Source: Planctomycetota bacterium | GTDB taxonomy: Bacteria; Planctomycetota; UBA8108; UBA1146 | Direction of reading: 5' to 3' | DNA: 64,000 nucleotides | NCBI GenBank assembly: GCA_016776905.1 | Contig: JADHSM010000010.1 | Coordinates: 62,001 to 126,000, forward strand | In this document: piece after piece, positions 16,622-63,275 of the stretch | Layout: each line of letters begins with the position of its first letter | Numbering within the stretch: position 1 is the stretch's first letter | Translations under genes and position numbers: made by a program | Notes under the pieces: model-generated | Told to the model about the DNA's origin: nothing | Seen by the model: the letters and a program-made list of their open reading frames with translations, nothing else | Databases searched by the model: none

Positions 16622-16990
16622 TCAAATTCCGTCGTTCACTAAGTTCTGAATCATTTCTTTTAACGCTGCGACATGTTCGGGCTTCTGAAGATCAAATCCC
16701 TGAATCAGTTCTTCTAGAACTTCAGGATCCTTAGATTCCACAGGGTTCTGGCCGTCAATATCATGAACCTGATCGGAAATCCCATCCGAGTTTTCCTCGA
16801 GAGGAATATCGTCTGCGATACGTCCACTGTCTTCGGAGCCTTCCGATTCGACAGGAGCGGTGGATCCATCAGGACCGTCGGGGCCATCAACACTGTCAGG
16901 GCCAGAAGGGCCGCCAAGACCAGAAGGGCCATCAGGACTCCCTGGACCCTCAATCTCCCCAGAACCAAAATCGATACTATCCATGCTCAT
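16622..16990 (-). CDS. Gly/Pro/Asp/Ser-rich low-complexity protein, unknown function
   Basis: 122 residues with no signal peptide or membrane segment. The first half is a run of G-P-D/S-G triplets (GPGSPDGPSGLGGPSGPD, VDGPDGPDG), collagen-like in composition but not strictly Gly-x-y periodic. The second half is acidic and ends in a short predicted helix (PEVLEELIQGFDLQKPEHVAALKEMIQNLVNDGI) that could be a docking or dimerisation segment. It stands alone between a terminator and a gene-poor stretch. Coding is supported by the ordered C-terminal half; function unknown. Confidence 0.55.
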   Translation of the reverse strand: MSMDSIDFGSGEIEGPGSPDGPSGLGGPSGPDSVDGPDGPDGSTAPVESEGSEDSGRIADDIPLEENSDGISDQVHDIDGQNPVESKDPEVLEELIQGFDLQKPEHVAALKEMIQNLVNDGI

Positions 16991-17397: not shown

Positions 17398-19368
17398 CTA
17401 GAGAACGGGAACACCCAGGCGACTGAGTTCTCTCACCCGGATCCTCATTTTTTGTTCTTCTGAACTCTCCCGATCAGGACTCTTCTTCTTATCGGCCTTC
17501 TTGTTGTTGGCCTTCTTGTTATTGGCCTTCTTGTTGTTGGCCTTCTTGTTATTGGCCTTCTTCTTATCGACCTTCTTGTTGTTGGCCTTCTTCTTATCAG
17601 CCTTCTTCTTATCAGCCTTCTTCTTATTCGCCTTCTTCTTATTCGCCTTCTTCGGAGAATCGTCCCCGCTCTTATTTAAAAGAACTTCATCGAACTCTCC
17701 CTGCCTCATGCCGGACTGCAGCTTCTCGACCATTTCTTTTATGATTTCGAGAGACGGCAACTCTCCGAGATCCATTTCATTCCCATCGATTTCAATCATG
17801 ACGGATGTCTCGAAGTCGCCGCCCATGAGTTCTGCAATGTCCATATCAAACTCGACATCGCCACCTTCGAACTCGTCGAAATGGTCGACTCCAATCACGA
17901 TCCCCCCAGGCTCACCCGATGCCCCCTCGAACAACTTGGAAAGATTGGCAATCTTCAGAGGTTCCGTCACCGAAAGCTCAGTATGGAACTCCACATGATT
18001 AAAATCACCTGAAGACATCGCAGGGCATTTCAGTTCTTCGCCGCATTCTTCCTCACCGCAGCATTCTTCTTCGCCGCAGCATTCTTCTTCGCCGCATTCT
18101 TCCTCACCGCAGCATTCTTCTTCGCCGCATTCTTCTTTACCGCAGCATTCTTCTTCGCATTTATTTTGTTGCATCCAGGCATGGATTTCACCCATGGCTT
18201 TCATGTGATGTGCCTGAAGAGGCATCTTCATTCCGGAATGCCCTTCCAAGAAAACAACATGGCCATCCATTCCAGGGATAACCGCATCACCTTCCAGCAT
18301 CATGTGCTCGAGGAAATTAGGACCTTCGGTCACCCTTCCATGCATACCAGATCTACCGTTGCGCCCTCGTAACATCATGGGAGAAGGCCCCGTACGTCCG
18401 AATGAACCTCTCCGATCGATACCGATATGGGTGACTCCCCATTCCGCAGGGGAATCGAAGCGTGTGGAGTCCATTTGTTCTTCAAATCGAGAAGACCGAA
18501 GACGACGCTGCATACGTCTTTCCATGGGACGCCTTGTCATTCCCCTGTCATTGCTCCGCCACTCAAAGCGGGCATTCCTTCCACCTTCACGATACTCGTC
18601 ACGATCCCAATCACGATGCTCTTCACGATTACGATGCTCTTCACGATCCCAATCACGATTCTCTTCACGATCACGATGCTCTTCACGATCACGATGCTCT
18701 TCACGATCACGATGCTCTTCACGATCCCAATCACGATTCTCTTCACGATTACGATTCTCTTCACGATTACGATTCTCTTCACGATCACGATGCTCTTCAC
18801 GATCACGATGCTCTTCACGATCCCAATCACGATTCTCTTCACGATTACGATGCTCTTCACGATCACGATGCTCTTCACGATCCCAATCACGATTCTCTTC
18901 ATGATTACGATGCTCAACTCGATCACGACCCCGTTCTTCTTCACGACGATCGCGTCTGTCTCGATGCGGTGATCTTGAATCGTCGCCACGAGCTCGATCA
19001 TCTCGCGAACGCGCCTGATTTCTCCTCAAGCGATCTCCGCGACCGGTTCCATTCTCTTCAAGATCTTGAATGCGCTCCTCTATCACCCTCGCCATATCCA
19101 TCAAACGCGCCAACTCACCCCGCAAAGCTTCGAGTTCTGGCTCTGCGGCTTCATTTCTTGAACGCCTTCTGTTGGCGGGTCTTCCGGCATCTGAATCCTC
19201 ATGGTCATCCACTTCTACAGCGGCTTCAGCGGACTTATTTTCATTTGCTGACTCCACTGACAAAGTCTCTTCTGCCAGAACTACACCTGAGGGATGCACA
19301 TGAATACATGCGGGTAAAAATATTCCAGCGAGCATTAACAAGCTCGCCCTGCGAAGTAGATTTTTCAT
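17398..19368 (-). CDS. Exported protein with three different repeat tracts (Arg/Glu/His, Cys/Glu, Lys/Asn/Ala)
   Basis: 656 residues; ATG with AAGGG upstream. The signal peptide (MKNLLRRASLLMLAGIFLPAC) contains an LPAC that could be a poor lipobox, while VVLA-EE offers a signal peptidase I site. After an acidic coil (EALRGELARLMDMARVIEERIQDLEENG) come residues about 145-258 built from EEHRDR and ENRDWDR units. A short Met/His-rich globular part (VIPGMDGHVVFLEGHSG) follows. At about 401-445 lies a tract of EE(E)CCG/ECG units with 13 Cys. Next is an acidic domain (SVMIEIDGNEMDLGELPSLEI). Near 570-630 is a KKANN/KKADK tract. I know no such family. The Cys/Glu and His tracts suggest metal binding; this is inference. 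It is 24 bases downstream of the HEAT/PDZ gene, likely co-transcribed. Confidence 0.8.
   Translation of the reverse strand: MKNLLRRASLLMLAGIFLPACIHVHPSGVVLAEETLSVESANENKSAEAAVEVDDHEDSDAGRPANRRRSRNEAAEPELEALRGELARLMDMARVIEERIQDLEENGTGRGDRLRRNQARSRDDRARGDDSRSPHRDRRDRREEERGRDRVEHRNHEENRDWDREEHRDREEHRNREENRDWDREEHRDREEHRDREENRNREENRNREENRDWDREEHRDREEHRDREEHRDREENRDWDREEHRNREEHRDWDRDEYREGGRNARFEWRSNDRGMTRRPMERRMQRRLRSSRFEEQMDSTRFDSPAEWGVTHIGIDRRGSFGRTGPSPMMLRGRNGRSGMHGRVTEGPNFLEHMMLEGDAVIPGMDGHVVFLEGHSGMKMPLQAHHMKAMGEIHAWMQQNKCEEECCGKEECGEEECCGEEECGEEECCGEEECCGEEECGEELKCPAMSSGDFNHVEFHTELSVTEPLKIANLSKLFEGASGEPGGIVIGVDHFDEFEGGDVEFDMDIAELMGGDFETSVMIEIDGNEMDLGELPSLEIIKEMVEKLQSGMRQGEFDEVLLNKSGDDSPKKANKKKANKKKADKKKADKKKANNKKVDKKKANNKKANNKKANNKKANNKKADKKKSPDRESSEEQKMRIRVRELSRLGVPVL
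17480..17655 (-). repeat. 15-bp tandem repeat encoding KKANN/KKADK units
   Basis: About eleven imperfect copies of a 15-bp unit (plus strand: ggccttcttgttattg and variants such as ttcttcttatcag). On the minus strand each copy encodes five residues, NKKAN or DKKAD. The unit length keeps the frame, so copy-number change would only lengthen or shorten the Lys-rich tail. Confidence 0.9.
18033..18165 (-). repeat. Tandem repeat encoding Glu/Cys units (EEECCG, EEECG)
   Basis: Plus-strand copies of ttcttcgccgcagcattc and shorter variants lacking one Cys codon. They encode about eight alternating GEEECC and GEEEC units. Thirteen cysteines fall within about 45 residues, all spaced by acidic triplets. 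Confidence 0.88.
18593..18930 (-). repeat. 18/24-bp tandem repeat encoding EEHRDR / ENRDWDRE units
   Basis: Plus-strand unit cacgatcacgatgctctt (18 bp), mixed with a 24-bp form containing cacgatcccaatcacgat. About eighteen copies are present. Both lengths are multiples of three, which explains why long ORFs appear in the other frames here; those ORFs are shadows. Confidence 0.92.
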
Positions 19369-19392: not shown

Positions 19393-20619
19393 TTATTTAT
19401 TAGTTTTTTCATGACTGATTTTTGTTGAGAGAATCACGCATTTCCCTTTACGCATGACTTGAAACTCCAGCGGCTTCAATGGTTGTCGGAATGCACCTGC
19501 GAGATGTAAGTTATTTTCAATATCTTGATCGTCTGACTTGAGAAAAATATCCCAAACCTTAAAGCCTAATTTCTGAGCTAAACTATCTTCACGTATCGAA
19601 CGAATCATGTAGTTCGCATTTTCTATACCTAGAAGATGCGATTTAAGCCCAGGGTGAACCTCTTCTAATTCGAATCCCATCGGCTCCACACGAAGACGTT
19701 GGCCATCACTCTGAATATTTAAGACGACCTCTCCATTGAGGATCTCTGTCTGGTGACTCTCTGAAGACCCCCATGAAGTACGACTGCCACTGAAGAAGGT
19801 ACTTCGAGGTCTACGTGACCTCGAAGTACGCTCTTTAAACATCTCTTCGATCTGAGCAGGCCTTGAGATTCCAAATCGAATGTCCTTTGACAACTCGCGC
19901 TGCATTCGCTCCAGTTGCTCGACGGGATCGAAGTCCGCGTCCTCCAATAAACGTTCTATTGTCTTTTCTGGTCTGAGAGAGGGTGTTGTTTTCCCAACAT
20001 TTCGTGGTCTGACGAGGTCGACAATGTCCACTTTTGATTTACTGAGTTCTCCTTCACCAAACTCTATGGTGACAACTCCTCCTGGACCTACCAAAACTTT
20101 CCTCCGCAAGGTTGCGCCGGTACCCGATTCCCGAGTCTCTTCCAGCACAGGGTTATCGAGATTCGAAATTAATTCCTCAGCCTTCGATCGAATTTCTAAA
20201 TCTTGATTCTTCAGCGCCTTCACCAAATATGGCCTGACAACAGCCCCCTTTTTCAGCAGATTCTGCGCAGCTGATTCTCTCTTTTCCCAAGAATCCGACC
20301 CCAAATCATTGATCCAATTCTGGATGGTGGAATCAATTTTTTGAGGGTCAGCCACTGCAACTATCTTCTCTTTCGTGACCTCTGATTTTTCAGATCGAGT
20401 CTCTACGGAGTCGGGTGTCTTTTTTTGTGTGTCTGAAACCTGCTGGTCCACGCCATCCTGAAAAATTTGAGAAGCGAAAAAAGTATCCGGAATCCCTAAG
20501 AACAGAAGGACTGCAATCATGCAGACAGGGCTCTTTGGGGAAAGAAAGCTCTTCCATTCCATTCCGAGGAGATGGGGAGAGACACTGGGCTCGGGATTCC
20601 GGAAATTCAGCAAACTCAT
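19393..20619 (-). CDS. Membrane-anchored HEAT-repeat and PDZ-like domain protein
   Basis: 408 residues. A hydrophobic segment (VCMIAVLLFLGIPDTFFASQIF, about 32-53) acts as anchor or late signal peptide; an internal ATG (MEWKSF) is a possible alternative start. Residues about 100-150 look like HEAT units (IQNWINDLGSDSWEKRESAAQNLLKKGAVVRPYLVKAL, DLEIRSKAEELISNL). A Ser/Arg-rich linker follows. The last 100 residues read as a PDZ domain (LGIENANYMIRSIREDSLAQKLGFKVWDIFLKSDDQDIENN...FRQPLKPLEFQVMRKGK). There is no protease domain, so a scaffold role in the envelope is more likely than HtrA-type proteolysis. A good sigma-54 site lies about 100 bases upstream, and the three-tract repeat protein follows by 24 bases. 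Confidence 0.78.
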   Translation of the reverse strand: MSLLNFRNPEPSVSPHLLGMEWKSFLSPKSPVCMIAVLLFLGIPDTFFASQIFQDGVDQQVSDTQKKTPDSVETRSEKSEVTKEKIVAVADPQKIDSTIQNWINDLGSDSWEKRESAAQNLLKKGAVVRPYLVKALKNQDLEIRSKAEELISNLDNPVLEETRESGTGATLRRKVLVGPGGVVTIEFGEGELSKSKVDIVDLVRPRNVGKTTPSLRPEKTIERLLEDADFDPVEQLERMQRELSKDIRFGISRPAQIEEMFKERTSRSRRPRSTFFSGSRTSWGSSESHQTEILNGEVVLNIQSDGQRLRVEPMGFELEEVHPGLKSHLLGIENANYMIRSIREDSLAQKLGFKVWDIFLKSDDQDIENNLHLAGAFRQPLKPLEFQVMRKGKCVILSTKISHEKTNK

Positions 20620-20721: not shown

Positions 20722-20737
20722 AGCAAAGTGTGGGCCA
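20722..20737 (-). promoter_or_regulatory. Candidate sigma-54 promoter of the HEAT/PDZ operon
   Basis: The minus strand reads TTGGCCC-ACACT-TTGCT. Against the consensus TGGCAC-N5-TTGCW it matches five of six -24 bases and all of -12, with the exact GG-N10-GC spacing. The predicted start point leaves a leader of about 90 bases before ATG 20619. Sigma-54 control is inferred from this match and from the activators encoded nearby. Confidence 0.6.
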
Positions 20738-20920: not shown

Positions 20921-23900
20921 TCAGTCTCCCAACTCAATTTCAAGAAACTCTGTGGTTCCTGCAGGAAGGAAGACTTCGAAAGTGGGCGCGTCATTCAGTG
21001 AAATTTTTCGCTGCGTTGTTCCGAAGCTTGTCACTCTCACCGTATAGGTTCCTGTGGGTAGCCCAGGGAAAGTAAAGAAACCTTTCCTGTCTGTCTGAGT
21101 TCTAGCATCGGTTCCTTTGACTCCTCCTGAGAGAAGCACCTGAACGCCAGGTACAGAATCGCCATTCGTTTCGAAAAGGCGGCCTTCGATGATGCCACCC
21201 GTACCAATGGCCACGATCAAATCTGAAGTCCCACTCAAAACATCCGTGACGACCTCTGTAATATAAGCGCGATGCTCAACCTTCAAATCTACTTGAGGGA
21301 CAGATAATCCAATGAATTCAAAGTATCCATCTGGCCCTGTCATGATCTGATCTTTACGCGGTGAGGATCCGGTTCGAATTGTACTGGTTAAGAAATTTCG
21401 AGTTCCCCCGATAACAGTCACCTTTGCACCGGCAACAGGCTGATTGGAATTCGAATCGATAATCTGGCCAAGAACACGACCGCCCTGACCGAGACGTATC
21501 GTCTGTACATCAAACCAATCATTTGAGCGAATCACGACATCATCAATCGTCGCCTGAGCAAAACCCGGAGCCCCAATGATCACTGAGTATCTTCCGGGAG
21601 CGAGGCCATCAAACTGGAAAAAGCCATCTTCAGGTTGGAATGTCCTCGCGGGTACCTTTGTGGTCGGCTTATCACCCACAATGATGCGTGGCGAAACGCT
21701 AAAGGCTCGCAGCGGACTTCCATCCTCTTGCAAGACCGTTCCTCGAAGTCCACCGAGTGCTTCTAGTTGAACGATAATTTCGTCACCATTGACCGGAACC
21801 TCAAACAGACGAATCTCTGCAAAACCATTCTTTTCCACAGCGAGGTCTACAGGAAACTGCCCGAGATTATCGAAACTGAATCGGCCCGTGAGATCAGAAC
21901 TCTTTGAAATTTTCCGAAGACCATCACTGGTATCGATTGCGACGACTCTTGCGCCCTCAATAGGATTACCTGAAAAGTCTGTGACAAGCCCGGCAAGTAC
22001 AGCCCCTTGAGTCAATCTCAATTCAATGTTGGCAGTGTTCATGCCCTCTTCAACGATGATTTCACTTTTCTCAACTGTTAAGAAGCCATTCATTGCACAG
22101 ATTAAATTGTGATATCCAGACGGCAAACTCTTGATGGAAAACTGTCCTGCTGCATCTGAGACTGTTTTGTTGGGCAAGGACTCAGGATTTACATCTCCCA
22201 GCCATTCATCTCTAACCGCAACAATTGCGCCTTCGAGAGGAACCCCCGATTCGTCTACCACAATGCCGCTAATAGCACCCCCGACCTTCATTGTCAGGGT
22301 GACATTCGTGAGCGATCCTCCGGCCATAAGATCAAAGGTCTCTGATTGGGTCGTCAAGAATTGTGCATGAGTTCCCTCAACGAACATTTCTGTTCCAGGG
22401 GAAACCTCAACAACTTCGAACGAGCCATCTGCCTGACTCATCACCGGAGGCGCAGCGTTAACCACGACCGGATTTTGTTCCGAATGCATTTTTCGTGCAC
22501 TCACGGAGACCCCTTGTAACGGGCTTCCATTGGCATCTAGGACGATCCCTGTCACCACACCATTTCGCTCTAAGTAAAAGTTCTGCCCCGTAGTTTCGAC
22601 GCCCTCAGCAACACTGGCTTCAACATTTCCGGAGCGCATGTATCCAGGGGCATCCACATTCAAATATGCGACAGGGCGACGCTGCTCAGTCACTCCTCGA
22701 ACGTAAAATGTTCCTGAGGAATCTGTAACTGCTGATTTCTTCACATCTGCCACATCATTTACAGTAATCACAGCCCCAGCAATCGGCTCAGAAGTCTCTA
22801 CGTCGAATACTCCACCACTAATGGCAGCGCCTTGACTTAACTGAATACTCAAAGGCTCTGCTGAAGGGCGAATCCGCAACTGCTGATGGGTCGCATAATC
22901 TTCGAAGCTGACGACGAGTCTGTAGTCCAATTCATCCAACGTATCAAAACGAAAGGCTCCATTAGCATCCGTTTCAATTCCAGCATCTGTCAACTCGATA
23001 GGTGAACCTTCAGTTCTTGTACCCATCGGGTTGATCTTGCAACGAGCACCTTCGAGGGCATTACCGTCCGGGTCGTAAACTGTTCCTTCAATGACTTGCC
23101 CTGGAATCAACACCACGTCGACTTGCTCAGATCCACCTGAGACAACTGACAATTTCTCAAACTGACGAGGCTGATATCCATTGGCCTGGATCACCAATCG
23201 GAATTCGGAACCACCACCGAGCTCATTGAACTCGAATTGACCACCGCCGTCGGTGTTCCTAAAAGCCAGAGGCGGGAACGCTCTTTCCTGAATAATTTCA
23301 ATGATGTCCATCGTGCCCGTCTGACGATAGATCTGAACAAGAGCATCGCTAACGGGAACCCCTCCCGGATCTGAAACCACTCCTGATAGGATTCCGCCCA
23401 GTTCGAGCATGAAATCCACACCTTCGCTACCGGCAGAGATGTATCTCTTCTCTGCAGGAGAGAATTCCGAAACAACGGTCTGTAGTCGGTAACTCAAGTT
23501 TTCAAGTCCCAAGATCTGGTAACGACCAGATTCATCGGAGACTGCAACGACTCCATTTTCCTGCTGCATTTCTTCCAAATTCAAGAGCACCTGCAAGCGT
23601 GTTTGAAGAGGAGCATCTTGCTCGACACGTTCCTTGAACGCGGCGACCTGCACACCGGGAATTGGATTGCCAGTCGGATCCAATATTGTTCCACTGATGC
23701 TCAATCCTGAGGAAAGTACCAGTACGACTTCCGTGGAATCAATACTGCTATCTCCGGTCAAGGTGAGCTCTTGGCGTCCACCCTGATACCCAGAAAGAGA
23801 CGCCTGAAAACGGAGTCGACCCGGACTCAAGTCTGTGAATGAAAATCGGCCATCTGTTCCGGTCCTTGTCTCATTCAATTTGGAGAGACCCATACCGTCG

Positions 23901-24169
23901 CCTCCCCGAAAATTCGAGACGATCACTTCCGCGAGCGGAAGAGGCGTTCCATTTACATCCTGAACAACACCACTCACCGACACCTTTTGCTTTGGGCGAT
24001 CCGGTAACTTGGTATTGGTAGATTTTGGCTGACCAAGATCTTCAACAACTACATTTCGTGAAGACCCACCCTGAGGCAGAGGATCAGAGTCGGTAAGGAA
24101 TGTCATTAAGACGAATCCGATTCCGACGATCAACAGGGTGATCACACCAGCTTTTATTGCCGCATTCAT
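20921..24169 (-). CDS. Membrane-anchored protein with about eleven carboxypeptidase-regulatory-like (Ig-like) repeats
   Basis: 1082 residues from ATG 24169, which has AAGGAG at perfect spacing; the track's GTG 24193 lies before that site. A single N-terminal helix (AIKAGVITLLIVGIGFVLMTFL) anchors a long chain of about 90-residue beta-sandwich repeats. Each opens with a motif like ISGTILDPTGNPIPGVQV or LAGLVTDFSGNPIEGARV and ends with a G-x-F-x-F-x-x-L-x-x-G-x-Y element. I count openings at VSGVVQD, ISGTILD, LSGVVSD, IEGTVYD, ISGGVFD, VTGIVLD, ISGIVVD, LAGLVTD, LRGTVLQ, VLGQIID and IEGRLFE. These domains usually act as rods or adhesion modules. No catalytic domain is present. Confidence 0.9.
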   Translation of the reverse strand: MNAAIKAGVITLLIVGIGFVLMTFLTDSDPLPQGGSSRNVVVEDLGQPKSTNTKLPDRPKQKVSVSGVVQDVNGTPLPLAEVIVSNFRGGDGMGLSKLNETRTGTDGRFSFTDLSPGRLRFQASLSGYQGGRQELTLTGDSSIDSTEVVLVLSSGLSISGTILDPTGNPIPGVQVAAFKERVEQDAPLQTRLQVLLNLEEMQQENGVVAVSDESGRYQILGLENLSYRLQTVVSEFSPAEKRYISAGSEGVDFMLELGGILSGVVSDPGGVPVSDALVQIYRQTGTMDIIEIIQERAFPPLAFRNTDGGGQFEFNELGGGSEFRLVIQANGYQPRQFEKLSVVSGGSEQVDVVLIPGQVIEGTVYDPDGNALEGARCKINPMGTRTEGSPIELTDAGIETDANGAFRFDTLDELDYRLVVSFEDYATHQQLRIRPSAEPLSIQLSQGAAISGGVFDVETSEPIAGAVITVNDVADVKKSAVTDSSGTFYVRGVTEQRRPVAYLNVDAPGYMRSGNVEASVAEGVETTGQNFYLERNGVVTGIVLDANGSPLQGVSVSARKMHSEQNPVVVNAAPPVMSQADGSFEVVEVSPGTEMFVEGTHAQFLTTQSETFDLMAGGSLTNVTLTMKVGGAISGIVVDESGVPLEGAIVAVRDEWLGDVNPESLPNKTVSDAAGQFSIKSLPSGYHNLICAMNGFLTVEKSEIIVEEGMNTANIELRLTQGAVLAGLVTDFSGNPIEGARVVAIDTSDGLRKISKSSDLTGRFSFDNLGQFPVDLAVEKNGFAEIRLFEVPVNGDEIIVQLEALGGLRGTVLQEDGSPLRAFSVSPRIIVGDKPTTKVPARTFQPEDGFFQFDGLAPGRYSVIIGAPGFAQATIDDVVIRSNDWFDVQTIRLGQGGRVLGQIIDSNSNQPVAGAKVTVIGGTRNFLTSTIRTGSSPRKDQIMTGPDGYFEFIGLSVPQVDLKVEHRAYITEVVTDVLSGTSDLIVAIGTGGIIEGRLFETNGDSVPGVQVLLSGGVKGTDARTQTDRKGFFTFPGLPTGTYTVRVTSFGTTQRKISLNDAPTFEVFLPAGTTEFLEIELGD

Positions 24170-24313
24170 GCTGTTTCTCCTTCGCAGATTCACTCTTATA
24201 AAGTGACTGCTCTATTCATTCAGGGACTCATTCCGAGCGAACCTAAGAGTCCCGTATTTATACTCTATTCAGTAAGTTTCATCCGACTACCAGAGCCGTT
24301 TGAATCAGAAAAT

Positions 24314-25741
24314 TTATTCACTTTTCGCACTTTGACCTTCTGGGTTTTCTTTCAGTCGATATTTCCGGATACGGTATTGAAGCGTTTTGTAGGTGATTCC
24401 TAACATCTTCGCAGCCGGCTCCAATTTCCCGTCTGAGCGCATGAGAGCTTGCTCAATGAGGTTTTTCTCAAGATCTTCGAGAACGATCCCCTCGGAGGGC
24501 AGATTAAAAACGGAATCAAGGCCGAGCTCTAAACTCTCTGACTCACCCCGTAATCCTGGAGGTAAAAGATCTTCTCCAAGCAGTGAGCCTTCGCCCAAAA
24601 CCATCATTCTTTCGAGACAATTCTCCAGTTCTCTCACATTACCGGGCCAAGAATGCCCATCGAAAATCTCCATCACCTCACCGGTGATGCCTTTAAATTC
24701 ACGATCATGCCTCAATCCACCTTTGAGAAGAAAGTGCTCCACCATGAGCGGAATGTCTTCTTTGCGATTCCTGAGAGGAGGAATCTCAAGCACGACAACA
24801 TTCAATCTGAAAAACAAATCTTCCCTAAACTCCCCTGCCTCAACGGCCTGCCGGAGATCTCTCCCAGTCGCTGCAACGATACGGCCGCCGAACGGGATGA
24901 CTTCGGAAGAACCGACTCTGGAAAACTCAAGCTCCTGAAGAGACCTCAATAGTTTTGGCTGTAATTCCAAATCCATTGCGCCAATCTCATCCAAAAAGAG
25001 AGTTCCCTCACCCACATCTTCAAATCTTCCTGATCGTCTCGAAGACGCGCCGGTGAAAACACCCTTTTCGTGTCCGTACAATTCACTTTCGATAAGATTC
25101 GGGGGGATAGCAGCGCAGTTGATGGCGACAAAAGGATCATCCTTGCGAGGACTTAAATCATGAATAGCCTTGGCAACGAGTTCTTTCCCCGTGCCACTTT
25201 CACCACGAATAAGGCATGTCGCACCTGTTGCTGATACTCGCTCAATTCTTTCAAAGAGTTGAACCATTCCAGGATGCTTCCCAATGATTCCACTAAATCC
25301 AAACTCTTTTGAAATCATGGACCGAAGTCGTTTGTTCTCATGAGCGAGTCGAGACTTTTCAACAGCAGACTCGATCGTCAGCATAGTCTTTTCAAAATCG
25401 AGAGGCTTTTCCAAAAATGCAAACGCCCTCGCTCCACCAGATTGGAACGCAACTTCACTACTGGCGAATGCTGTTACCAGAATGACTTCACACTTAGGGT
25501 CCTGATTGCGGACCTTGAGGAGAAGTTCTAAGCCTTCTTTATCGGTGGGCATTCGCAAATCGGTGACAACCAGATTAAACGGCTTATCCGATCGGCTCGC
25601 TGTCTCAAAAAGTGATAGAGCAGCGGGCAAACTGGCTGCACCAGAAACCTCATAGCCTGACTTAAGGAGGGAGGAAACAAGAATCTCCCTCTGCGGACGT
25701 TCGTCATCTGCAACCAGAATACGGCCTTTAAATTCCATCAT
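24314..25741 (-). CDS. NtrC-family sigma-54-dependent response regulator
   Basis: 475 residues. The receiver domain (1-125) has the acidic pair ADDE (11-14) and phospho-acceptor Asp61 in VVTDLRMP. The AAA+ domain has Walker A GESGTGKE, Walker B GTLFLDEIG, and the sigma-54-contacting loop as GVFTGA instead of GAFTGA. A Fis-type helix-turn-helix closes the protein (LEPAAKMLGITYKTLQYRIRKYRL). It activates sigma-54 promoters when phosphorylated by its kinase, here the gene directly upstream with a 4-base overlap. The GVFTGA variant is unusual but conservative. Targets are not known; nearby sigma-54 sites are candidates. Confidence 0.95.
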   Translation of the reverse strand: MMEFKGRILVADDERPQREILVSSLLKSGYEVSGAASLPAALSLFETASRSDKPFNLVVTDLRMPTDKEGLELLLKVRNQDPKCEVILVTAFASSEVAFQSGGARAFAFLEKPLDFEKTMLTIESAVEKSRLAHENKRLRSMISKEFGFSGIIGKHPGMVQLFERIERVSATGATCLIRGESGTGKELVAKAIHDLSPRKDDPFVAINCAAIPPNLIESELYGHEKGVFTGASSRRSGRFEDVGEGTLFLDEIGAMDLELQPKLLRSLQELEFSRVGSSEVIPFGGRIVAATGRDLRQAVEAGEFREDLFFRLNVVVLEIPPLRNRKEDIPLMVEHFLLKGGLRHDREFKGITGEVMEIFDGHSWPGNVRELENCLERMMVLGEGSLLGEDLLPPGLRGESESLELGLDSVFNLPSEGIVLEDLEKNLIEQALMRSDGKLEPAAKMLGITYKTLQYRIRKYRLKENPEGQSAKSE

Positions 25742-27672
25742 GCGTCCTTCTCCACTGAAACAGGGAGATGGAATCGGACTTCTGTTCCAACACCTCGCTC
25801 TGAGGTGATCGTCAGTTTTCCTCCGTACCTTTCAGTCACCCTTCTAGCAATAGAGAGACCTAAGCCTGTCCCACCCTTGCGACGAGTGACATAAGGTAAA
25901 AGAACCTGACTTAAATCTTCTTCTTTTATACCGGGACCCGTATCGGAAAACTTCAAGACGATCCAATGGCTATCAGATTTTGCTTCGATATTCAGTTTTC
26001 CACCGTTGGCCTCCATCGCTTGGAGTGCATTCATTGCGACATTCAGCAATGCGCTTTTTGCCTCCACTTTATTCCAGCGAGTTAAGGATAAATTCGAATC
26101 CACAGCGCTCTTGATTTCAACATTTCTGGAAAGCGATTCGCTCTCCAGCAATCTCAATAAATCCTCAACGAGATCGGAGACATTGACGATCTCTGACTGC
26201 TGGGAACTTGGCTGAGCTAATTGAAGGAAGTCTGAAACGATGTTGTTCAAACGTTCAATTTCATCTTTTACATCCTTGGTAAAGTTCAAAAATTCTTCTC
26301 GCTCTGCTGCTTCTTCGGGCTTGAACTCATGGCGAATTCGCCCCACTAGAAGAGAAATAGCGCTAAGCGGATTTCGAATGTCATGTGCAACACCCGCAGC
26401 AAGGTCACCCATCGTCTGGACCCTTTCGCGATGCTCCAGCCCTTTTTCGAGTTCCCTTGCCCGACCGATTTGCTGAACCATGTCATTGAATTGGGTATTG
26501 ATCAGAGCAAACTCTGAATCTTGCGTATGGGGCAATCGAACCTCAAGATCACCTGAAGCGACGCCTTGCATGCCTTTTACGACTTCACTCACAGGCTTCA
26601 TTAGGTGACTACCAAGAAGCCATGCGAGAATCAGGCCCATAAGAAAAATTGTCACCGTCGCTTGTAGATTCATTTTATTTGTTTCTTCGACGACAAGATC
26701 CAAACGACTCAGATACGAATCCAGATCGATACTGAGCTGTGGATATTCCGTCGAAACAACTTTGGCTTCCTGCAGCCTCGCTTTATTCCCTGAATAGGTT
26801 TGAGAGTCCACGCCTTCAATCGGGAGAACAATCGCTGCTGAAATCTTCTCTCTGAGGGAATCTTCGGATTGCGCTTCAGGCGCAGCCATGCTGCGAGGAA
26901 GAAGATTAGGAAAATCAGGATCTCTCCACACGTAGAGTCCGGGGATGCGAAATCGCGCCGATCTTACACTTTTAAGAACAGCATCTCTTTTCCCAGTTTC
27001 TTCTGCCAAACTCCCTGGACCCTCATTACGACGACCCTCATGGCGACGATCCTCATTACGACGACCCTCATGGCGACGATCCTCATTACGACGACCCTCA
27101 TGGCGACTATCCTCATGGCGACTATCTGGATCCCCGAAGCTCAATGATAAACCAAGTGCATGAGCCATCTCTTGGATCCCATTTGAATTTGGTAAATCAG
27201 GCTGCGTCTTTGTCATCAATGAAAATAGTAGATCTTGGATGCTGAGCTCAAACTGTACGCGAGAATTCGCTTGCTGCTGAATCTCCATCAAAGACTGCAT
27301 ATCCAGCCTTAGACTTTTCACGGGCTCTTCAGATTGAGACGAATTCCAAAAGGAAAGCTCAATCTCTTGATTAATTGGCGTGTCATAGATTACTGGCGTG
27401 TCATAGAACCTTGACGACTGGGAACTTGACGACTGGGAACTGGACGACTGGGAACTGGACGACTGAAGACTAGACGAATTGTAAAAAGCGTTGATCAATT
27501 TCTCAGTGGCTTCATCTGCAAGTTCTATCGCGATAGTTTCCGCTTCCTGGAAAATATGGTCGGCACCCTTCTCCATCACCACTGATTGGACCGCGAGAGT
27601 CCCAGCCATCAAGACTCCTAATAAAAGGAGTAACTTGACTCGAAGATTCCAGATTCCAAGCACGTTGACCAA
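25738..27672 (-). CDS. Membrane sensor histidine kinase (NtrB/AtoS-like) with repeat-expanded sensor domain
   Basis: 644 residues, TTG start (27672). TM1 covers about 10-33 and TM2 about 335-357; the sensor between them should be periplasmic. A HAMP segment follows, then HisKA with the phospho-acceptor His in AAGVAHDIRNPLSAI (about 429), and a HATPase domain with N-box (MNALQAMEANGG), G1 (FSDTGPGI) and G2 (GGTGLGLSIARRV). The sensor contains two low-complexity tandem tracts: SSSQS units near residue 75 and RHEGRRNED units near 195-215. Neither is known from this family to bind a ligand. It overlaps its response regulator by 4 bases (ATGA). Confidence 0.93.
   Translation of the reverse strand: MVNVLGIWNLRVKLLLLLGVLMAGTLAVQSVVMEKGADHIFQEAETIAIELADEATEKLINAFYNSSSLQSSSSQSSSSQSSSSQSSRFYDTPVIYDTPINQEIELSFWNSSQSEEPVKSLRLDMQSLMEIQQQANSRVQFELSIQDLLFSLMTKTQPDLPNSNGIQEMAHALGLSLSFGDPDSRHEDSRHEGRRNEDRRHEGRRNEDRRHEGRRNEGPGSLAEETGKRDAVLKSVRSARFRIPGLYVWRDPDFPNLLPRSMAAPEAQSEDSLREKISAAIVLPIEGVDSQTYSGNKARLQEAKVVSTEYPQLSIDLDSYLSRLDLVVEETNKMNLQATVTIFLMGLILAWLLGSHLMKPVSEVVKGMQGVASGDLEVRLPHTQDSEFALINTQFNDMVQQIGRARELEKGLEHRERVQTMGDLAAGVAHDIRNPLSAISLLVGRIRHEFKPEEAAEREEFLNFTKDVKDEIERLNNIVSDFLQLAQPSSQQSEIVNVSDLVEDLLRLLESESLSRNVEIKSAVDSNLSLTRWNKVEAKSALLNVAMNALQAMEANGGKLNIEAKSDSHWIVLKFSDTGPGIKEEDLSQVLLPYVTRRKGGTGLGLSIARRVTERYGGKLTITSERGVGTEVRFHLPVSVEKDA
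27020..27125 (-). repeat. 30-bp tandem repeat inside the histidine kinase sensor domain
   Basis: Copies of acgaccctcatggcgacgat plus cctcattacg run from 27031 to 27120, about three and a half units with few changes. They encode RHEGRRNEDR units. The unit is a multiple of three and can expand without a frameshift. Confidence 0.9.
27411..27480 (-). repeat. 15-bp tandem repeat encoding SSSQS units in the sensor domain
   Basis: About four and a half copies of ttgacgactgggaac with single-base changes, encoding Ser-Ser-Gln-Ser-Ser. A second near-duplicate (tggcgtgtcatagat, two copies) lies just before it. Confidence 0.88.
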
Positions 27673-55856: not shown

Positions 55857-58800
55857 CTACATTTCCGGAGCATCGCTGGGGGTAGGACCGGTGTCAGGAC
55901 GCCGCTCCTTGAGGGTCAAGGTCAGGACCACTGGGAGTACTACAAGAGTGAGGAGCGTCGATGTCCCCAAACCTCCGATAATGGTTTTTCCCAAAGTCGT
56001 GAACTGTGGACCCGTAGTAATCTGAGTCGCATAGGCCATGGGAATCAGTCCCAGAATCGTTGTCAGTGCGGTGATGAGAATCGGGCGCAATCGATCGCTG
56101 GCTCCAGAGATGATGGCATCTAACCGAGATGCACCTTCCTGCATACGTCTCAAGACCTGATCGATGAGCACTATCCCATTATTGACGACGATGCCGCTCA
56201 GAAGGATCGTTCCGATTGCTGCAGGTGTATCTAGGTTATCTCCCTGAAGAAACAGGAACCATATCACCCCTGGGACGGCCAAGAATACTGAGAGCATGAG
56301 AACAAGAGGAGTCCTCATTGATTCAAAGAGACACGCCAGAACCATGTAGACGAGAAATACGGAAAGATACATCCCTTCTCCAAAGGACTCCCGGTTTCTC
56401 CATCGCCCTGACCACTGCTCACCCAAATCCCAAGAGTAGCCCACAGGCCAAGAATACTGAGCCAGTGCTTCCTCCACTCGAGCCTGAACGACCTGCTGAT
56501 CTTCGAGTCCGAGTTGTACCGAGATATTTGCATATGCCATTCGATCCCAGCGCTTACGTTCATCGGGAGCTTCCGCTTGAACGAGGGTACCTAAATCTTC
56601 AATCGGCAATTCCAAATCATCCGTGATGGCGAATTTCATACTCTTTAACTCTGTGACGCTATCGGTCTCTTCATCGACGAGCCCCAAATTGATTTCCATA
56701 TCATTGGATCGGGTTCTCAGACTCGAAAGGCGACTTCCAGCAAATGCCATACTGACACTTCTTGCGACTTGGTTACCGGAAACCTGCAGTCTCGCTAAGA
56801 GATCCTCATTGGGCTCAAGACGAAGTTCATCGACCTGATCACGACCAGGTATTTCACTATCCATGACACCTTCAACACCTAAGAGGTAACTGGAAACCTT
56901 CGGCGCGAGATCATCCAGCAATGACCCAGAAACCCCTTTGAGACGGACATTGATGGTGCCAGCACTGGATCTTCCCCCACCGCCACGTCCACCCCAGCCC
57001 CAGCCATTACTGGTCTTGATGTTAAATCCTGGAACTTTGGGGAGCACGCTCCCAATTTTGACTCTGAGGTCTGCAAGATATTCCTCTGTCGCTAATTCCT
57101 GGGGAGGATATACGCGTGTTATTGCATTTCCATCAGAGAACCACGAATAGATATCACCTTCACCGATGACTTCTCTGTTCGATTCAAGTATCCCCTCGAT
57201 CTGCGTAACAACTTTTTCCATCTCCCGGAAATCAAGCCCCTCGACAGGGTTGTAGGAAACATTGGCAAAGTTCGTTTTCCAATCCATATCAGAAAGGTCG
57301 AAACGAAATCCATTCTGGAAGGGAATCATGACACTGAAGGTTGCAGCTGCAGCGATGACTAAGGTCAGCCATTTGTATCGAATAGCTCCGGTAAGAAAAC
57401 GTGAGTAAGCATTACGGAAGGATTCGAACCAAGCCGCTTTTTTCACTTCTTTTTTGCCGAAGATTCTTGCTGAAACCATCGGTACGAGAGTCAATGAAAC
57501 GAAAAGACTCGCACCAATCGTCAGCGAAATGACGATGCCCACACTCCCCAAATGTTCTGAGAACTGACTCTCTCCTGAGATGATCACAGGCAGAAACACC
57601 ACCATTGTCGTCAAAGTCGCGGCGAAAACGGGTGTTGCCACTTCCATGGTTCCACGAGTAGCAGCAAGGAGAGGATCCTCACCCATCGCCGCACGCCGCA
57701 CTATCGACTCAACAACCACGACCGCTGTATCTACCAGCATGCCGACACCAAGCATCAACGCCAAAAGTGTCAGCGTATTCAGTTCCATTTCCATGAGATG
57801 CAATGCAGCCATCGCAGTCAGAACTGAAATCGGAATCGCCATTCCCACAAGAAAAGTTGCCGAGATCCTTCGTAAGAAAAGCATGAGGACAATAAGAGCA
57901 AGCCCACCCCCAACAATTCCGGCATCCCGGAGTTGGCCGATGGAGCTTTCAATCATTTTTCCCTGGTCTTGCCAAACAAGCAGATCGATCCCCTCCAATT
58001 GAGGGTCACCCTGAATCTGCTCGACAACTTCACGAATCTTACGACAAACATTGACCGTATTTGCGCCAGATTGCTGAGACACTTCTAGAGATATGGCGGG
58101 GGCATGATTGAGGTGACGTCCCCATCTCATCTCGCCTTCAACCTTTTCAATAATCGCTACCTGGCCGAGACGAAGCCCCTTGTCATTGATCGGTAGATCG
58201 AAGAGATCTTCATATTCATCGATAGCGTTGAGCATTCGTAAGCGACGGGTCTTCCCGTCTTTCCTGATTTTCCCGATGCTCGCATCCACATTCGATCCAT
58301 TGATAACCGCTGCAATACCACCCAGGCTAAGCCCGTGTTTCTCAAGATCACCCTTACGGAATTGAATCTTAACTTCGAGAGGCTTTATCCCGTCTAGCTC
58401 GACTTGACCTACCCCATCGATACGTTCGAGTGGCCTCTGAATTCTGTCGACCAGAAGGTTGTAGTTCTCCGAAAGATCAATCCCTGGGGAACTGATCCTT
58501 GCTTCCATGATCGTTTCGTTTCCCGGTCCCCAACCGCCATCACGTACTCGTATTCTCTCGAGGTCCTCCACCGGGAGGTCATTGATAGCGCGAGCCAACC
58601 GTTCTCGAATTTCTACTTTGATAGCATCGGTATCACTCCCGTGGCCAAACCTGAGAGTCACCCGCCCTCTTCCATCACTGGACTCGCTCTCAATCCCCTC
58701 AAGACCATGCAGCGTCGCCAATGCCTCTTCGAGGGGGCGCACCACTTCATTTTCAACTTGGGTTGGAGAAGCGTTGGGGTATGGGATCGTGATATTAATT

Positions 58801-58934
58801 CGATTTTTACTGAAGTTTGGCAGCGCGCTCAAAGGAAGTTGTTGGACAGATAGGATTCCGGCAAGAATCAGTAATAGATGAATCGTTAAGGTCGTGATGG
58901 GTCGGGAAAGACAGAGGCGAACAAAGCTTTTCAT
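55857..58934 (-). CDS. RND efflux transporter subunit (second pump gene)
   Basis: 1025 residues, the full length for RND (HAE1/HME) pumps, with twelve predicted membrane helices. Features: the start FVRLCLSRPITTLTIHLLLILAG with TM1, PNFSKNRINITIPYPNASPTQVENEVVRPLEEAL (porter domain entry), TM4 with LGVGMLVDTAVVVVESIVRR (one Asp of the proton relay), ATPVFAATLTTMVVFLPVI and, in the second half, GIVVNNGIVLIDQVLRR. It exports compounds by proton exchange across the envelope. Its gene overlaps the first RND gene by 4 bases, and both share one adaptor, as in MdtABC-type heteromeric pumps. The substrate is unknown. No outer-membrane TolC gene is in the window. Confidence 0.95.
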   Translation of the reverse strand: MKSFVRLCLSRPITTLTIHLLLILAGILSVQQLPLSALPNFSKNRINITIPYPNASPTQVENEVVRPLEEALATLHGLEGIESESSDGRGRVTLRFGHGSDTDAIKVEIRERLARAINDLPVEDLERIRVRDGGWGPGNETIMEARISSPGIDLSENYNLLVDRIQRPLERIDGVGQVELDGIKPLEVKIQFRKGDLEKHGLSLGGIAAVINGSNVDASIGKIRKDGKTRRLRMLNAIDEYEDLFDLPINDKGLRLGQVAIIEKVEGEMRWGRHLNHAPAISLEVSQQSGANTVNVCRKIREVVEQIQGDPQLEGIDLLVWQDQGKMIESSIGQLRDAGIVGGGLALIVLMLFLRRISATFLVGMAIPISVLTAMAALHLMEMELNTLTLLALMLGVGMLVDTAVVVVESIVRRAAMGEDPLLAATRGTMEVATPVFAATLTTMVVFLPVIISGESQFSEHLGSVGIVISLTIGASLFVSLTLVPMVSARIFGKKEVKKAAWFESFRNAYSRFLTGAIRYKWLTLVIAAAATFSVMIPFQNGFRFDLSDMDWKTNFANVSYNPVEGLDFREMEKVVTQIEGILESNREVIGEGDIYSWFSDGNAITRVYPPQELATEEYLADLRVKIGSVLPKVPGFNIKTSNGWGWGGRGGGGRSSAGTINVRLKGVSGSLLDDLAPKVSSYLLGVEGVMDSEIPGRDQVDELRLEPNEDLLARLQVSGNQVARSVSMAFAGSRLSSLRTRSNDMEINLGLVDEETDSVTELKSMKFAITDDLELPIEDLGTLVQAEAPDERKRWDRMAYANISVQLGLEDQQVVQARVEEALAQYSWPVGYSWDLGEQWSGRWRNRESFGEGMYLSVFLVYMVLACLFESMRTPLVLMLSVFLAVPGVIWFLFLQGDNLDTPAAIGTILLSGIVVNNGIVLIDQVLRRMQEGASRLDAIISGASDRLRPILITALTTILGLIPMAYATQITTGPQFTTLGKTIIGGLGTSTLLTLVVLPVVLTLTLKERRPDTGPTPSDAPEM

Positions 58935-61900
58935 GACACAGCCTCACCTTCGGAATCGCTGACGAGGGCTCGATATCCACTCGGGATCACTGCCAGAGTC
59001 AAAATCGTTGCCACAGCAAGTCCCCAGACCACCGTGATCGCCAATGGCTTTCTCAGTTCAGCGCCTGGGCCAAAGCCCATCGCTAACGGCATCAATCCTA
59101 AAATCGTAGTCGTACTTGTGATCAATATTGGACGCAATCTTTCGATCCCTGCACGACGTGTTGCCTCAGTTGCGCCCAACCCACTATTTTGCAACTGTTG
59201 GATCCGACTGACGTAAATAATTCCGTTATTGACGACAATTCCACATAAGAGAATCACGCCGATCATCGAAAGAACTCCCAAGGGTATTCCTGTGAAGAGC
59301 ATTGCAAAAATGGCCCCACAAATTCCCAAGGGTACCGTCAGAATTACAATGAATGGCAACTTCAACGATTCAAATGTGCTGGCTAACACCAGATAAACCA
59401 CGAACACAGCAAGAGCTAATGCCATGCCCAAGCTGCGCAGAGATTCTTTCATCTCAATGTTCTGTCCCGACATTTTTGCAGTTGTCGTCGGGGACAATAT
59501 GCGTCCGTCCAAAGCCCTGATGACATTCGCGGTTGCGGTACCAAGGTCGACGCCAAAAGTCCGGGCAGTGACAGAAACAGATCTTTCGCCACCCACTCTT
59601 CGGATTTCAACCGGTCCCAACGCCTCTTTCAAACTGCCGAAGGCGGCCAGCCTCAAGACGGCATCATCTCCTTGTGTAGGAGTTCTGATCGAATCCCTAC
59701 CGGCTTCTTCCAAGGTTCTTTCTAAGGCGCCTTTGATACGAACTCGAATATCGATGGGCTTTTCAGCAAAACGATACTGAGAAGCCACCTCACCAATCGC
59801 TCGTGATTTCATGCCATCTGCGATTTGTCCGAGATTGAGTCCATATGCAGAAAGTCGATAGGGGTCCATGCGAACATGGATTTCGGGAACCTGATCTGGA
59901 ACTCTTGGATTCACATCTGTTAATCCCGCAACAAGGCTCATGCGATCAGCAACTGTCATCGCTGACCGTCTCAGCTCTTCGAGGTCGTCGTCGTAAACTT
60001 CGACTTCAATCGGATCACGAAAGGTGAAGAGAGAGGGTCGCCCGAGCGAGAAAGGACAATCAGGGATTTCCTTAAACCGTTCCTCGAGCTTCTCGATGAG
60101 AGCCGTCTCATCTTGGCGAGTGGCCCCATTTTCAAGTCCGAGTGTCAAACGGGCAATATGTTCTCTTCGTTCTCCTGATTGAACTTCACCAAGAACCGGA
60201 GATTCACCCACTGTCGAAGTATAAAGAGCGATCGGCCAATCTTCGGCTTTCAATTCAGAGACGATCTTTTCAAGAGCAGCGACTTTACGATCGGTTTCTT
60301 CTAGGGGAGTGCCCTCGGCCAATTCGACATCGAAGAAAAACTGTCCCTGATAAAGGTCTGGTACAAGTTCAGTTCCAAGATCGTTCACCTTCGGGAGCAC
60401 TACGGTGCAAAATGCGAGTGCCAGTACGGGTGCCCCCCATGGCATGGAAAGCAATCCACCCAAGGAACGAGAGTATAGATTTTGAGCACCCGTGAGAGCC
60501 CACGAGAACAAGCTCGCCAATGGCGACAAAAGCTTATCGATAAAGGCGATAAGCCGGCTCAATATGCCACCAGAGAAACGATGACCACTAGCAACCACTG
60601 TAGGAATCACCGTCGCGGCAACAAACAGACTTGCGACGAGGGAGTAAGTAACCGTCAGGGCCTGATCCCGGAAGATCTCTCCACCGATTCCTTGGACAAA
60701 AATCAGGGGTAGGAAAACTGCGATGGTCGTAAGCGTAGAAGCGACGATGCCGCCAATCACTTGACCTGTTCCCTTATAAACAGCTTCGAAAGGAGACATT
60801 CCCTCCTCCCGAAGTCTTTGAATCGACTCTAGGACAACAACACTGTTATCGACCAGCATGCCGATTCCCAAAGCGAGACCACCTAGGGAAAGGACGTTAA
60901 GACTGATTCCTGTCAGTTCCATCAGCAAAAATGTGACAGCGACAGATACGGGGATCGACAATGCTATCGTCAATGTACTGAGCATATTCCTCAGGAATAC
61001 ATAGAGAACGAGAGCGGCAAGAAGCGCGCCCATTAAGGCAGTCGACTCCACACTCTCGATAGACTCTTCAATAAATCTCGCCTGGTCCGAAAGAACGACC
61101 AGCTCACAGTCTGCGAGCTCCTTGTCATTCTCCAACTCTGCGAGACGCAGTCGTAATGCCTTGGCGACATTGACGGCATTCGCATCGCCCTCTTTATACA
61201 AGTCGATTTGAACGGCCGGCTGACCATCGACACGGACGAGAATCTCATCATCTCTGGGAACGATGGCCACGTCACCGATATCTTTGACCTGAACCGTCCC
61301 TGTTTGTCCCTGAAGAACGATGACATCCTCGATGTTCTCAAGGGATCTAAACTCTTTTACTGTTCGCAACCGGTAGGCCGTTTGCCGGTCACGGATCTCT
61401 CCCCCTGAACGGTTTACGTTTTCTTGGGATATGCGCCTAGCGACCGTCGCAACATCAAGAGAGAGTGCCTCCAGTTTTTGAGCATCCAGGTCGACCAGAA
61501 CTTCATCTTCTGCGCCTCCGGTCACCCTCGCGGCAGCCACACCGGTCACAGTCTCCAGTTTTCTCTTAATCTTGAGTTCTGCTAATTTTCTAAGATCTGG
61601 AATCGACCGAGAACCCGTTAATGCAAGACGAGTCATAGGATCAAGAGACGGATCAAACCGAAAAACCAAGGGTGAACGCGCATCTTCAGGAAGATTGACT
61701 AAGTCCAGTTTCTCTCTCACATCGAGGCTCGCCCTCTGCATGTCAGTGTCCCAACTGAACTCTAATACAACTTCCGAAACCCCGGCCCTTGAAGTGCTGG
61801 AATACCTCAAGAGACCTTGGGTCACTCCCACCACCTCTTCGATGGCATCGGTGACTAACTGCTCGACCTCTTGCGGGGAGGCATCGCGTAACTCGGTTTG

Positions 61901-62044
61901 AACTGTAAGGGTCGGATAGTTGATATCGGGGAGAAGCTCGACGGGAAGTCGTTTGAGAGAAAGTACTCCGAAGGTCACCGCGGCGATGGTGATCATCGCG
62001 ACAGTCACTGGTTTTCGGACAACACTTTTCAGAAATGACTCCAT
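58931..62044 (-). CDS. RND efflux transporter subunit (first pump gene)
   Basis: 1037 residues with twelve predicted membrane helices. Features: [27 protein letters not shown] (TM1), [69 protein letters not shown] (TM4), [19 protein letters not shown], and [23 protein letters not shown] near the end. The two pump genes are only distantly alike, so they are not a recent duplication. It lies 7 bases after the adaptor gene. A heterotrimer with the second pump is possible but not shown. The porter loop carries Arg- and Glu-rich patches; the substrate cannot be read from it. Confidence 0.95.
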   Translation of the reverse strand: [1037 protein letters not shown]

Positions 62045-62051
62045 CGGTCTC

Positions 62052-63275
62052 CTAGTTCTGTTCCTTGACCGCTGGGACTTTCGGATTAGGTCGAAGTTTT
62101 AGTGGGTTCTCAGGCACGGACATCGGCTCAACTGTCAGTTCATCTACTTCTACGGGAATACTCCTGTAAACACTGACTTTACTGCGATCCTTCAGCTTAT
62201 CGATTCCTTGAACCACAAGCCTGTCACCGATTCCTAATCCCTCTTCGATCACGACGATGGAATCATTTTCAAACCCTGTGATAACTTCGACTTCTTGAAC
62301 CGTTTCATCATCCAATAGACGAAACACGACTGAACGGTTTCCCCTCAGAGCCAATGCTTTCCTTGGGATAATCATTCGATTTTCTAAGGTGCGGGTGATC
62401 ACGTCGATATGAACGAATGCTCCCGGCCTAAGATTGACGGCGGCCTCGGGGAAAACGACGAGAACCTCAACTGTTAACGAAGTTCTATCAATAACGGGGC
62501 TGATCCTTTCGATCACTCCCTCCGTCACGATAGGTCCATCGCTTTCGGTTCTAAGGACACATCTCTGTCCTTTTTCAATGTCTGTCACTTCACTTTCCGG
62601 AAGGAAAATTCGAACCCGAAGAGGTTCAAAGTCCGCGTAGGTGAAGAGTTCATCGCCGACTCGAACATATTGGCCAGGCTCAATGCCCCTTCTCACGACA
62701 ACACTGTCAAACAATACCGATGGCTGAGAATGCCCAAGATCAATAAGGGCGCGGTCATGTCCGGCTTTTGCCCTCTGCATGGCAAATCGAGCGTTTTCTA
62801 CAGTTTCTTTTGAGGAGTCTCCTGAGCTGGCGAGACCTTCGAGTCGATTCAAGTTCGCTTGGGCTTGCTGAAGTTCTATCAACGCCAAGTCGGCAGCGAT
62901 GTGCAATTCCTCTTGATCGATAGCACAGAGCAATTGACCCTTAGAAACTTTTTGCCCCTCCACCACTGAAACTTTATCGACGGTACCTTCGACACGAGAG
63001 AGCAGACTCACTTCACGTTCGGGCTCAAGAATTCCACTGCTGCGAACGCGTTCACGGATGATCGCCAAAAGAGTCGAGCTGACCTCGACGGGCACAACCT
63101 CTTCCGACTTCATTCCCGCATATCCTGCCCCCCCCATCGAAGGACGCCCTGGAAATCCAGGTCTTTGACCCGGCGTTGCGGGCTTTTCAGATGATTGGGG
63201 AAAGAAACCGTGTGAAAACCATCCGATGGAGATCAGTGCAACAACGGCAAATAATCGAGGAAAGACTGTTTTCAA
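62052..63275 (-). CDS. RND periplasmic adaptor (membrane fusion protein)
   Basis: 407 residues. An N-terminal hydrophobic segment (LFAVVALISIGWFSHGFF) acts as anchor or signal, followed by a Pro/Gly-rich linker. The lipoyl-like hairpin shows SGILEPEREVSLLSRVEGTVDKVSVVEGQKVSKGQLLCAIDQEEL, then a helical hairpin (ALIELQQAQANLNRLEGLASSGDSSKETVENARFAMQRA), then the second lipoyl half (VRRGIEPGQYVRVGDELFTYADFEPLRVRIFLPE), beta-barrel and membrane-proximal domains. It bridges the pump to an outer-membrane duct. It overlaps the DUF971 gene by 4 bases and precedes both pump genes. Confidence 0.94.
   Translation of the reverse strand: MKTVFPRLFAVVALISIGWFSHGFFPQSSEKPATPGQRPGFPGRPSMGGAGYAGMKSEEVVPVEVSSTLLAIIRERVRSSGILEPEREVSLLSRVEGTVDKVSVVEGQKVSKGQLLCAIDQEELHIAADLALIELQQAQANLNRLEGLASSGDSSKETVENARFAMQRAKAGHDRALIDLGHSQPSVLFDSVVVRRGIEPGQYVRVGDELFTYADFEPLRVRIFLPESEVTDIEKGQRCVLRTESDGPIVTEGVIERISPVIDRTSLTVEVLVVFPEAAVNLRPGAFVHIDVITRTLENRMIIPRKALALRGNRSVVFRLLDDETVQEVEVITGFENDSIVVIEEGLGIGDRLVVQGIDKLKDRSKVSVYRSIPVEVDELTVEPMSVPENPLKLRPNPKVPAVKEQN

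Follow-up and report, generated by a model that had tools for sequence, protein, structure and literature searches.

Enterobacteria make the zinc-binding chaperone ZraP of the periplasm from a sigma-54 promoter under ZraSR control (PMC4987338), and chaperones and ZraR-type regulators are over-represented among the sigma-54 targets predicted in Planctomycetia (PMC12316311). The cysteine-rich YTV proteins are major wall proteins of Planctomycetales (PMC8567305), and periscope proteins are exported proteins whose repeat tracts vary in length between relatives (PMC8201768). The metal chaperone PacL1 is membrane-anchored, bears low-complexity glutamine/alanine repeats on the cytoplasmic side together with a metal-binding motif, and cooperates with a metal exporter of the P-type ATPase class (PMC9374683). 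Metallothioneins are marked by a very high cysteine density.

The window—the whole stretch of 64,000 nucleotides analyzed here, taken from a genome of 2.92 Mb in 26 contigs—encodes on its minus strand a repeat-built, putatively exported protein of 656 aa plus stop codon (17398..19368; ORF, translation, and orthologs), which shares single traits with each of these systems. As in ZraPSR, a membrane histidine kinase and an NtrC-type regulator lie beside a gene whose exported product carries possible metal ligands, and a putative sigma-54 promoter accompanies the pair: the promoter element is found at 13/13 loci, and the kinase and regulator genes are syntenic. Unlike in ZraPSR, however, this protein is built of repeats and its gene is apparently co-transcribed with a PDZ/HEAT gene. 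ZraP is also several times smaller than the 656-aa protein. Up to E 0.1, Pfam yielded no ZraP/CpxP match for the protein, searches of its orthologs up to E 1 gave no hit to that family, and LTxxQ is absent; judged by these comparisons, it is not a ZraP/CpxP member. With the YTV proteins it has in common that it is exported, Cys-rich, lineage-restricted, and planctomycete, but it lacks the YTV motif, carries its cysteines in one tract only, and belongs to uncultured marine lineages. Like periscope proteins, it appears exported and its tracts vary in length between relatives, whereas the tracts are of low complexity instead of folded repeat domains, and the LPXTG-type C-terminal anchor of periscope proteins is absent from its end, RELSRLGVPVL. 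The combination of a membrane anchor, here a probable one, low-complexity repeats, and a metal-binding motif—here only a candidate one—recalls PacL1, yet no P-type ATPase exporter gene is adjacent, and it is PacL1 whose repeats are cytoplasmic and of the glutamine/alanine type. The cysteine density is very high, as in metallothioneins, with 13 cysteines in 45 residues, but this tract sits inside a 656-aa exported protein, and no metallothionein model of Pfam or NCBIfam was matched.

The 656-aa protein matched no family in Pfam and NCBIfam (Pfam: none up to E 0.1), and neither it nor its orthologs could be assigned to any meaningful family by sequence searches of Pfam, NCBIfam, and PDB; weak matches to Val-tRNA ligase and histone H1-like models were discarded, as they were mainly due to the Lys tract. 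Also, no account of such a family was found in the literature. The family is hence undescribed and its layout without a described counterpart, as the sequence-only reading had supposed; orthologs were retrieved, and none of them points to a known structural family. Members occur in 13/16 genomes of the same planctomycete family, spread over the genera g1, g4, and g5, and within the own genus all six other genomes carry a relative, while a search with an N-terminal profile found none when run against 13 further genomes of the class. Those relatives that carry a name are assembled from metagenomes and nearly all labelled Planctomycetota (e.g., Planctomycetia bacterium TMED53 and MCMED-G47). The carriers are uncultured, mostly marine planctomycetes.

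All parts of the protein are encoded on the minus strand. The N-terminus bears a signal or anchor with LPACIHVHP and an [A/V]xA site (19264..19368; alignment A2 of 13 loci and class search), followed by a coiled-coil helix of residues 77–122 (19003..19140). The Arg/Glu/His/Asp tract of residues 146–259 (18592..18933; TRF, codons, and AF2) is composed of 18-bp units (CGT GAA GAG CAT CGT GAT, REEHRD) and 24-bp units (CGT GAA GAG AAT CGT GAT TGG GAT, REENRDWD). An Arg/Met/Gly-rich linker of residues 260–401 (18165..18591), whose position matches the Met/Gly/Arg region of the orthologs, leads to the Cys/Glu tract of residues 404–448 (18025..18159; TRF, codons, and selection in relatives). The acidic, non-repeat region of residues 449–572 (17653..18024; ortholog comparison) is followed by a Lys/Asn/Ala tract with a 15-bp unit at residues about 573–629 (17482..17653; TRF and codons) and by a conserved C-terminal tail (17401..17445; ortholog comparison), which ends in RIRVRELSRLGVPVL.

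TRF detects three arrays within the gene—15-bp × 11.5, 33-bp × 3.1, and 78-bp × 4.1—with a best score of 475 versus a maximum of 68 among 200 codon shuffles. Every cysteine of the Cys tract is encoded by TGC; the neighboring genes favor TGT over TGC by 29:9. All 30/30 lysines of the Lys tract are AAG, and arginine is CGT almost throughout the repeat tracts; codon usage of the neighboring genes is mixed. This uniformity implies that the tracts arose by DNA-level amplification. Hence, the sequence-only reading—three unrelated tracts in one ORF, repetitive in frame at the DNA level—is borne out in coordinates, units, and cysteine count, but it is incomplete, as members of the family share further parts: the N-terminal motif and the hydrophobic C-terminus, both conserved, and between them a coiled coil, a Met/Gly/Arg region, and an acidic region. 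Antisense ORFs over the repeats were discarded as a mechanical by-product, since it is the minus-strand frame that shows conservation, codon-level selection, and the signal peptide.

The export proposed earlier agrees with the signal-like N-terminus kept at 13 loci. In alignment A2, PACIHxHP is invariant at 13/13 loci, as are Cys21 and A32 of the [A/V]xA site. The canonical lipobox (PROSITE PS51257) is not matched, the sequence being LPAC with Pro at −2, and the N-terminus may either be lipidated at this non-canonical lipobox or use the [A/V]xA site that follows. The conservation of PACIHxHP (19264–19368) goes far beyond what a signal peptide should show.

AF2 modeling of the full protein yields a mean pLDDT of 47.6 and is confident only in the coiled coil and the R/E helix, with nearly all of the remainder below 50. 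A signal helix is predicted for residues 4–22 and the coiled-coil helix for residues 77–122 (block pLDDT up to 86), where orthologs display a heptad-like Leu pattern. Over the Arg/Glu/His/Asp tract, the model shows a 93-residue helix (162–254) with block pLDDT mostly about 89–94, obtained from a shallow alignment. As predicted, this long isolated helix would fit the single alpha-helix type of charged domain and suggests that the tract forms a single charged alpha helix in the window species. Such a rod is probably not shared by the whole family, since the His/Gly-rich tracts of relatives are not expected to form a helix of this kind. The acidic region gave no confident fold in either the 656-aa protein or a g4 member (mean pLDDT of the latter 32.4).

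Mean column identity in the full-length ortholog alignment is 38%, and the order of parts is broadly the same across genera: a signal-like N-terminus with LPACIHxHP, a coiled coil, a charged/His tract, a Met/Gly/Arg region, a Cys or His tract, an acidic region, a Lys tract, and a hydrophobic tail ending in [PVI][VI][LF]. The filling is REEHRD in the window species, GHEHGHDHG and RHDHD in the relatives G012–G015, RRDND in G006, and GRGEMMMGRTGM-type units in G005 and G007. Relatives in which the region of the Cys tract is sequenced bear a Cys-rich or His/Asp/Glu-rich stretch at this position; the g4 forms have only 7–10 cysteines, and in G010 the Cys tract is missing, with (HEID)n at its position. 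As this relative lacks it, the Cys tract is not the core of the family. Compared over these sequences, the repeat units are replaced between genera while the order of parts is kept.

The sequence-only reading left out the operon context—a PDZ/HEAT partner, a sigma-54 promoter-like site, and a histidine kinase/NtrC pair—all on the minus strand. The PDZ/HEAT protein of 408 aa with an N-terminal membrane segment (19393..20619; Pfam on orthologs) is encoded immediately upstream of the repeat gene at every locus where this is visible, and its stop codon lies 24 bp upstream of the repeat gene in the window; the two genes are apparently co-transcribed. Further upstream follow a syntenic protein with 11 carboxypeptidase-regulatory-like domains (20921..24193; Pfam CarboxypepD_reg 1.2e-113), an NtrC-type sigma-54 response regulator (24314..25741; Sigma54_activat match at G000:C25:86788-87288), which is 65–96% identical in syntenic orthologs, and a membrane histidine kinase with HAMP, HisKA, and HATPase_c domains (25738..27672; Pfam), whose gene overlaps that of NtrC. 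This order is kept wherever the contig extends that far. The periplasmic part of the kinase is poorly conserved; in the window species it contains in-frame repeats, SSSSQ and RRHEGRRNED (27021–27126 and 27413–27477), that are absent from complete orthologous kinases.

PDZ_2 is detected in 9/10 PDZ/HEAT orthologs (best 3e-11) and HEAT_2 in 7/10, and the Gly of the PDZ carboxylate loop is invariant among them. The repeat proteins end in [PVI][VI][LF] at 10/10 loci with a sequenced end, the final residue being L or F. From the adjacency of the genes and the chemistry of the tail, the C-terminus possibly docks in the PDZ domain of the partner. Metal genes were sought near the repeat gene, and none is adjacent. 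An operon at 55857–63275 encodes an RND efflux pump with two permeases and an adaptor; as metal-gene context (55.9–63.3 kb) it was rejected, since multidrug models fit better than CusA/CzcA and it is also far away.

About 100 bp upstream of the PDZ gene lies a sigma-54 promoter-like −24/−12 site, TGGCCCACACTTTGCT (20722..20737, minus strand), which is kept at 13/13 loci. The element TGGNYCNNNNTTTGCW recurs at these loci in three genera, with G007 one base off (TGGCCT at −24), and forms the clearest conserved block of the 13-locus intergenic alignment, the rest of which is poorly conserved. The genome encodes RpoN and 13 strong NtrC-type activators; perfect TGGCMCN4TTTGCW sites occur only five times in 2.9 Mb. 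One of these (L105, G000:C20:197572) lies about 140 bp before the reading frame of GroEL. From position and the conserved element, control of the PDZ/repeat operon by the kinase/NtrC pair is well supported as an inference. In the g3 genome G003, FlgM comes after the PDZ/HEAT gene, CsaA-like and RecN genes come next, and the repeat gene is absent; in G016—of another family of the same order—synteny extends over the genes for NtrC, the carboxypeptidase-like protein, and the PDZ/HEAT protein, and the visible stretch likewise contains no repeat gene. The promoter element was not found in the examined stretch of G003 (about 360 bp upstream) or of G016. Thus, judging from these two outgroup loci, promoter and repeat gene appear together. 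At the position of FlgM (anti-sigma-28) in g3, the window encodes a small Gly/Pro/Asp-rich protein (16622–16990) with no Pfam match, which may be a decayed or rewritten FlgM.

Among G012–G015, length differences in the His, Cys, and Lys tracts amount to whole in-frame units; G013 and G015, for example, differ by two 25-residue Cys units, with flanking parts 88–100% identical. The expandability of the tracts claimed earlier thus holds between species, the comparison to which its support is limited. An assembly break falls in or beside the repeat gene in 6/13 genomes versus about 1.1 expected (P about 2e-4); hence, tract lengths from single assemblies, the window included, need caution. For G013–G015, dN/dS is lowest in the Cys region (0.02–0.07) and mostly 0.10–0.38 in the other main regions, the Met/Gly/Arg region of relatives showing 0.10–0.16. 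The protein is therefore under purifying selection, and this selection, together with the conserved promoter element, suggests that the gene is expressed.

We favor, with a probability of roughly one in three (0.35), an exported, probably membrane-tethered, metal-binding accessory protein of a sigma-54-controlled envelope response to stress or metal, ZraP-like in its action. Hereby, the histidine kinase would sense an envelope or metal signal, and NtrC and RpoN would turn on the PDZ/repeat operon. The repeat protein would be exported and stay attached to a membrane through its N-terminus, with its coiled coil assembling it into oligomers; the charged tract would serve as a rod or brush of tunable length, formed in the window species by one alpha helix. 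The Cys/Glu and His/Asp/Glu tracts would either buffer soft metal ions or engage in disulfides, the Lys tract would bind an anionic polymer, and the hydrophobic C-terminus would dock in the PDZ domain of the protein produced along with it. Metal capture by the Cys/His tracts, already considered in the sequence-only reading from their composition, is plausible because relatives keep a Cys-rich or His/Asp/Glu-rich stretch at the same place; polyanion binding by the basic tract, likewise proposed there, is a guess. Several points count against this accessory-protein reading: no similarity to ZraP/CpxP or metallothioneins, no adjacent metal gene, G010 without a Cys tract, only 7–10 cysteines in g4, the poorly conserved kinase periplasmic part, and the non-canonical lipobox.

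Export, cysteine richness, and the coiled coil and helical rod predicted by AF2 would also fit a cross-linker or scaffold of the envelope, in which the cysteines form disulfides, the charged and Lys tracts attach to polymers of the wall or matrix, and tract length tunes the spacing. Such a role would be comparable to that of the Cys-rich wall proteins of Planctomycetes—the YTV proteins being major ones in Planctomycetales—and of the Cys-rich outer-membrane proteins of Chlamydiae. However, the missing YTV motif, the relative G010 without a Cys tract, and a promoter of the inducible sigma-54 type, not obviously that of a constitutive structural gene, make this rather doubtful. If the tracts were mere spacers, setting the distance of the tail or acidic region from the surface, the protein would be a periscope-like stalk of variable length in which composition is secondary; unit numbers that differ between close species, an R/E tract predicted as one long helix, and tract compositions that vary between genera agree with this. 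But no other region of the protein has a dN/dS as low as the Cys region, and Cys/His character is held at one place in relatives; composition therefore matters, and we consider the stalk unlikely. The same turnover could reflect low-complexity drift, that is, expansions tolerated in a slippage-prone lineage, with function residing in the N-terminus, acidic region, and tail. The in-frame repeats of the neighboring kinase, missing from complete orthologs of other species, the wholly different units between genera, and the codon homogeneity left by DNA-level amplification speak for it; yet the tracts keep their order and chemical type (charged/His, Met/Gly/Arg, Cys or His, Lys) at matching positions from genus to genus, and the Cys region is under purifying selection, which renders drift improbable.

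An unlikely further possibility is a lineage-specific exported polymer that was gained together with its own sigma-54 promoter and forms a tunable metal/polymer-binding brush on its PDZ partner. Here, the order of slots—anchor, coil, charged rod, Met/Gly/Arg, metal slot, acidic region, polycation, and PDZ-binding tail—would be fixed and the repeat filling repeatedly replaced, for example Cys/Glu by His/Glu/Asp. Independently of this possibility, the exported protein has an architecture conserved as chemical slots with repeats turning over, linked to an identifiable sigma-54 switch; it offers a testable case for selection on composition and length instead of sequence, and a lead to envelope sensing in uncultured marine planctomycetes.

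Lys-rich repeats are present elsewhere in the same genome: one ORF (L002, G000:C20:223455) bears histone-H1-like (AKKKV)n repeats and another (L003, G000:C6:337) bears (NKANKASKA)n.
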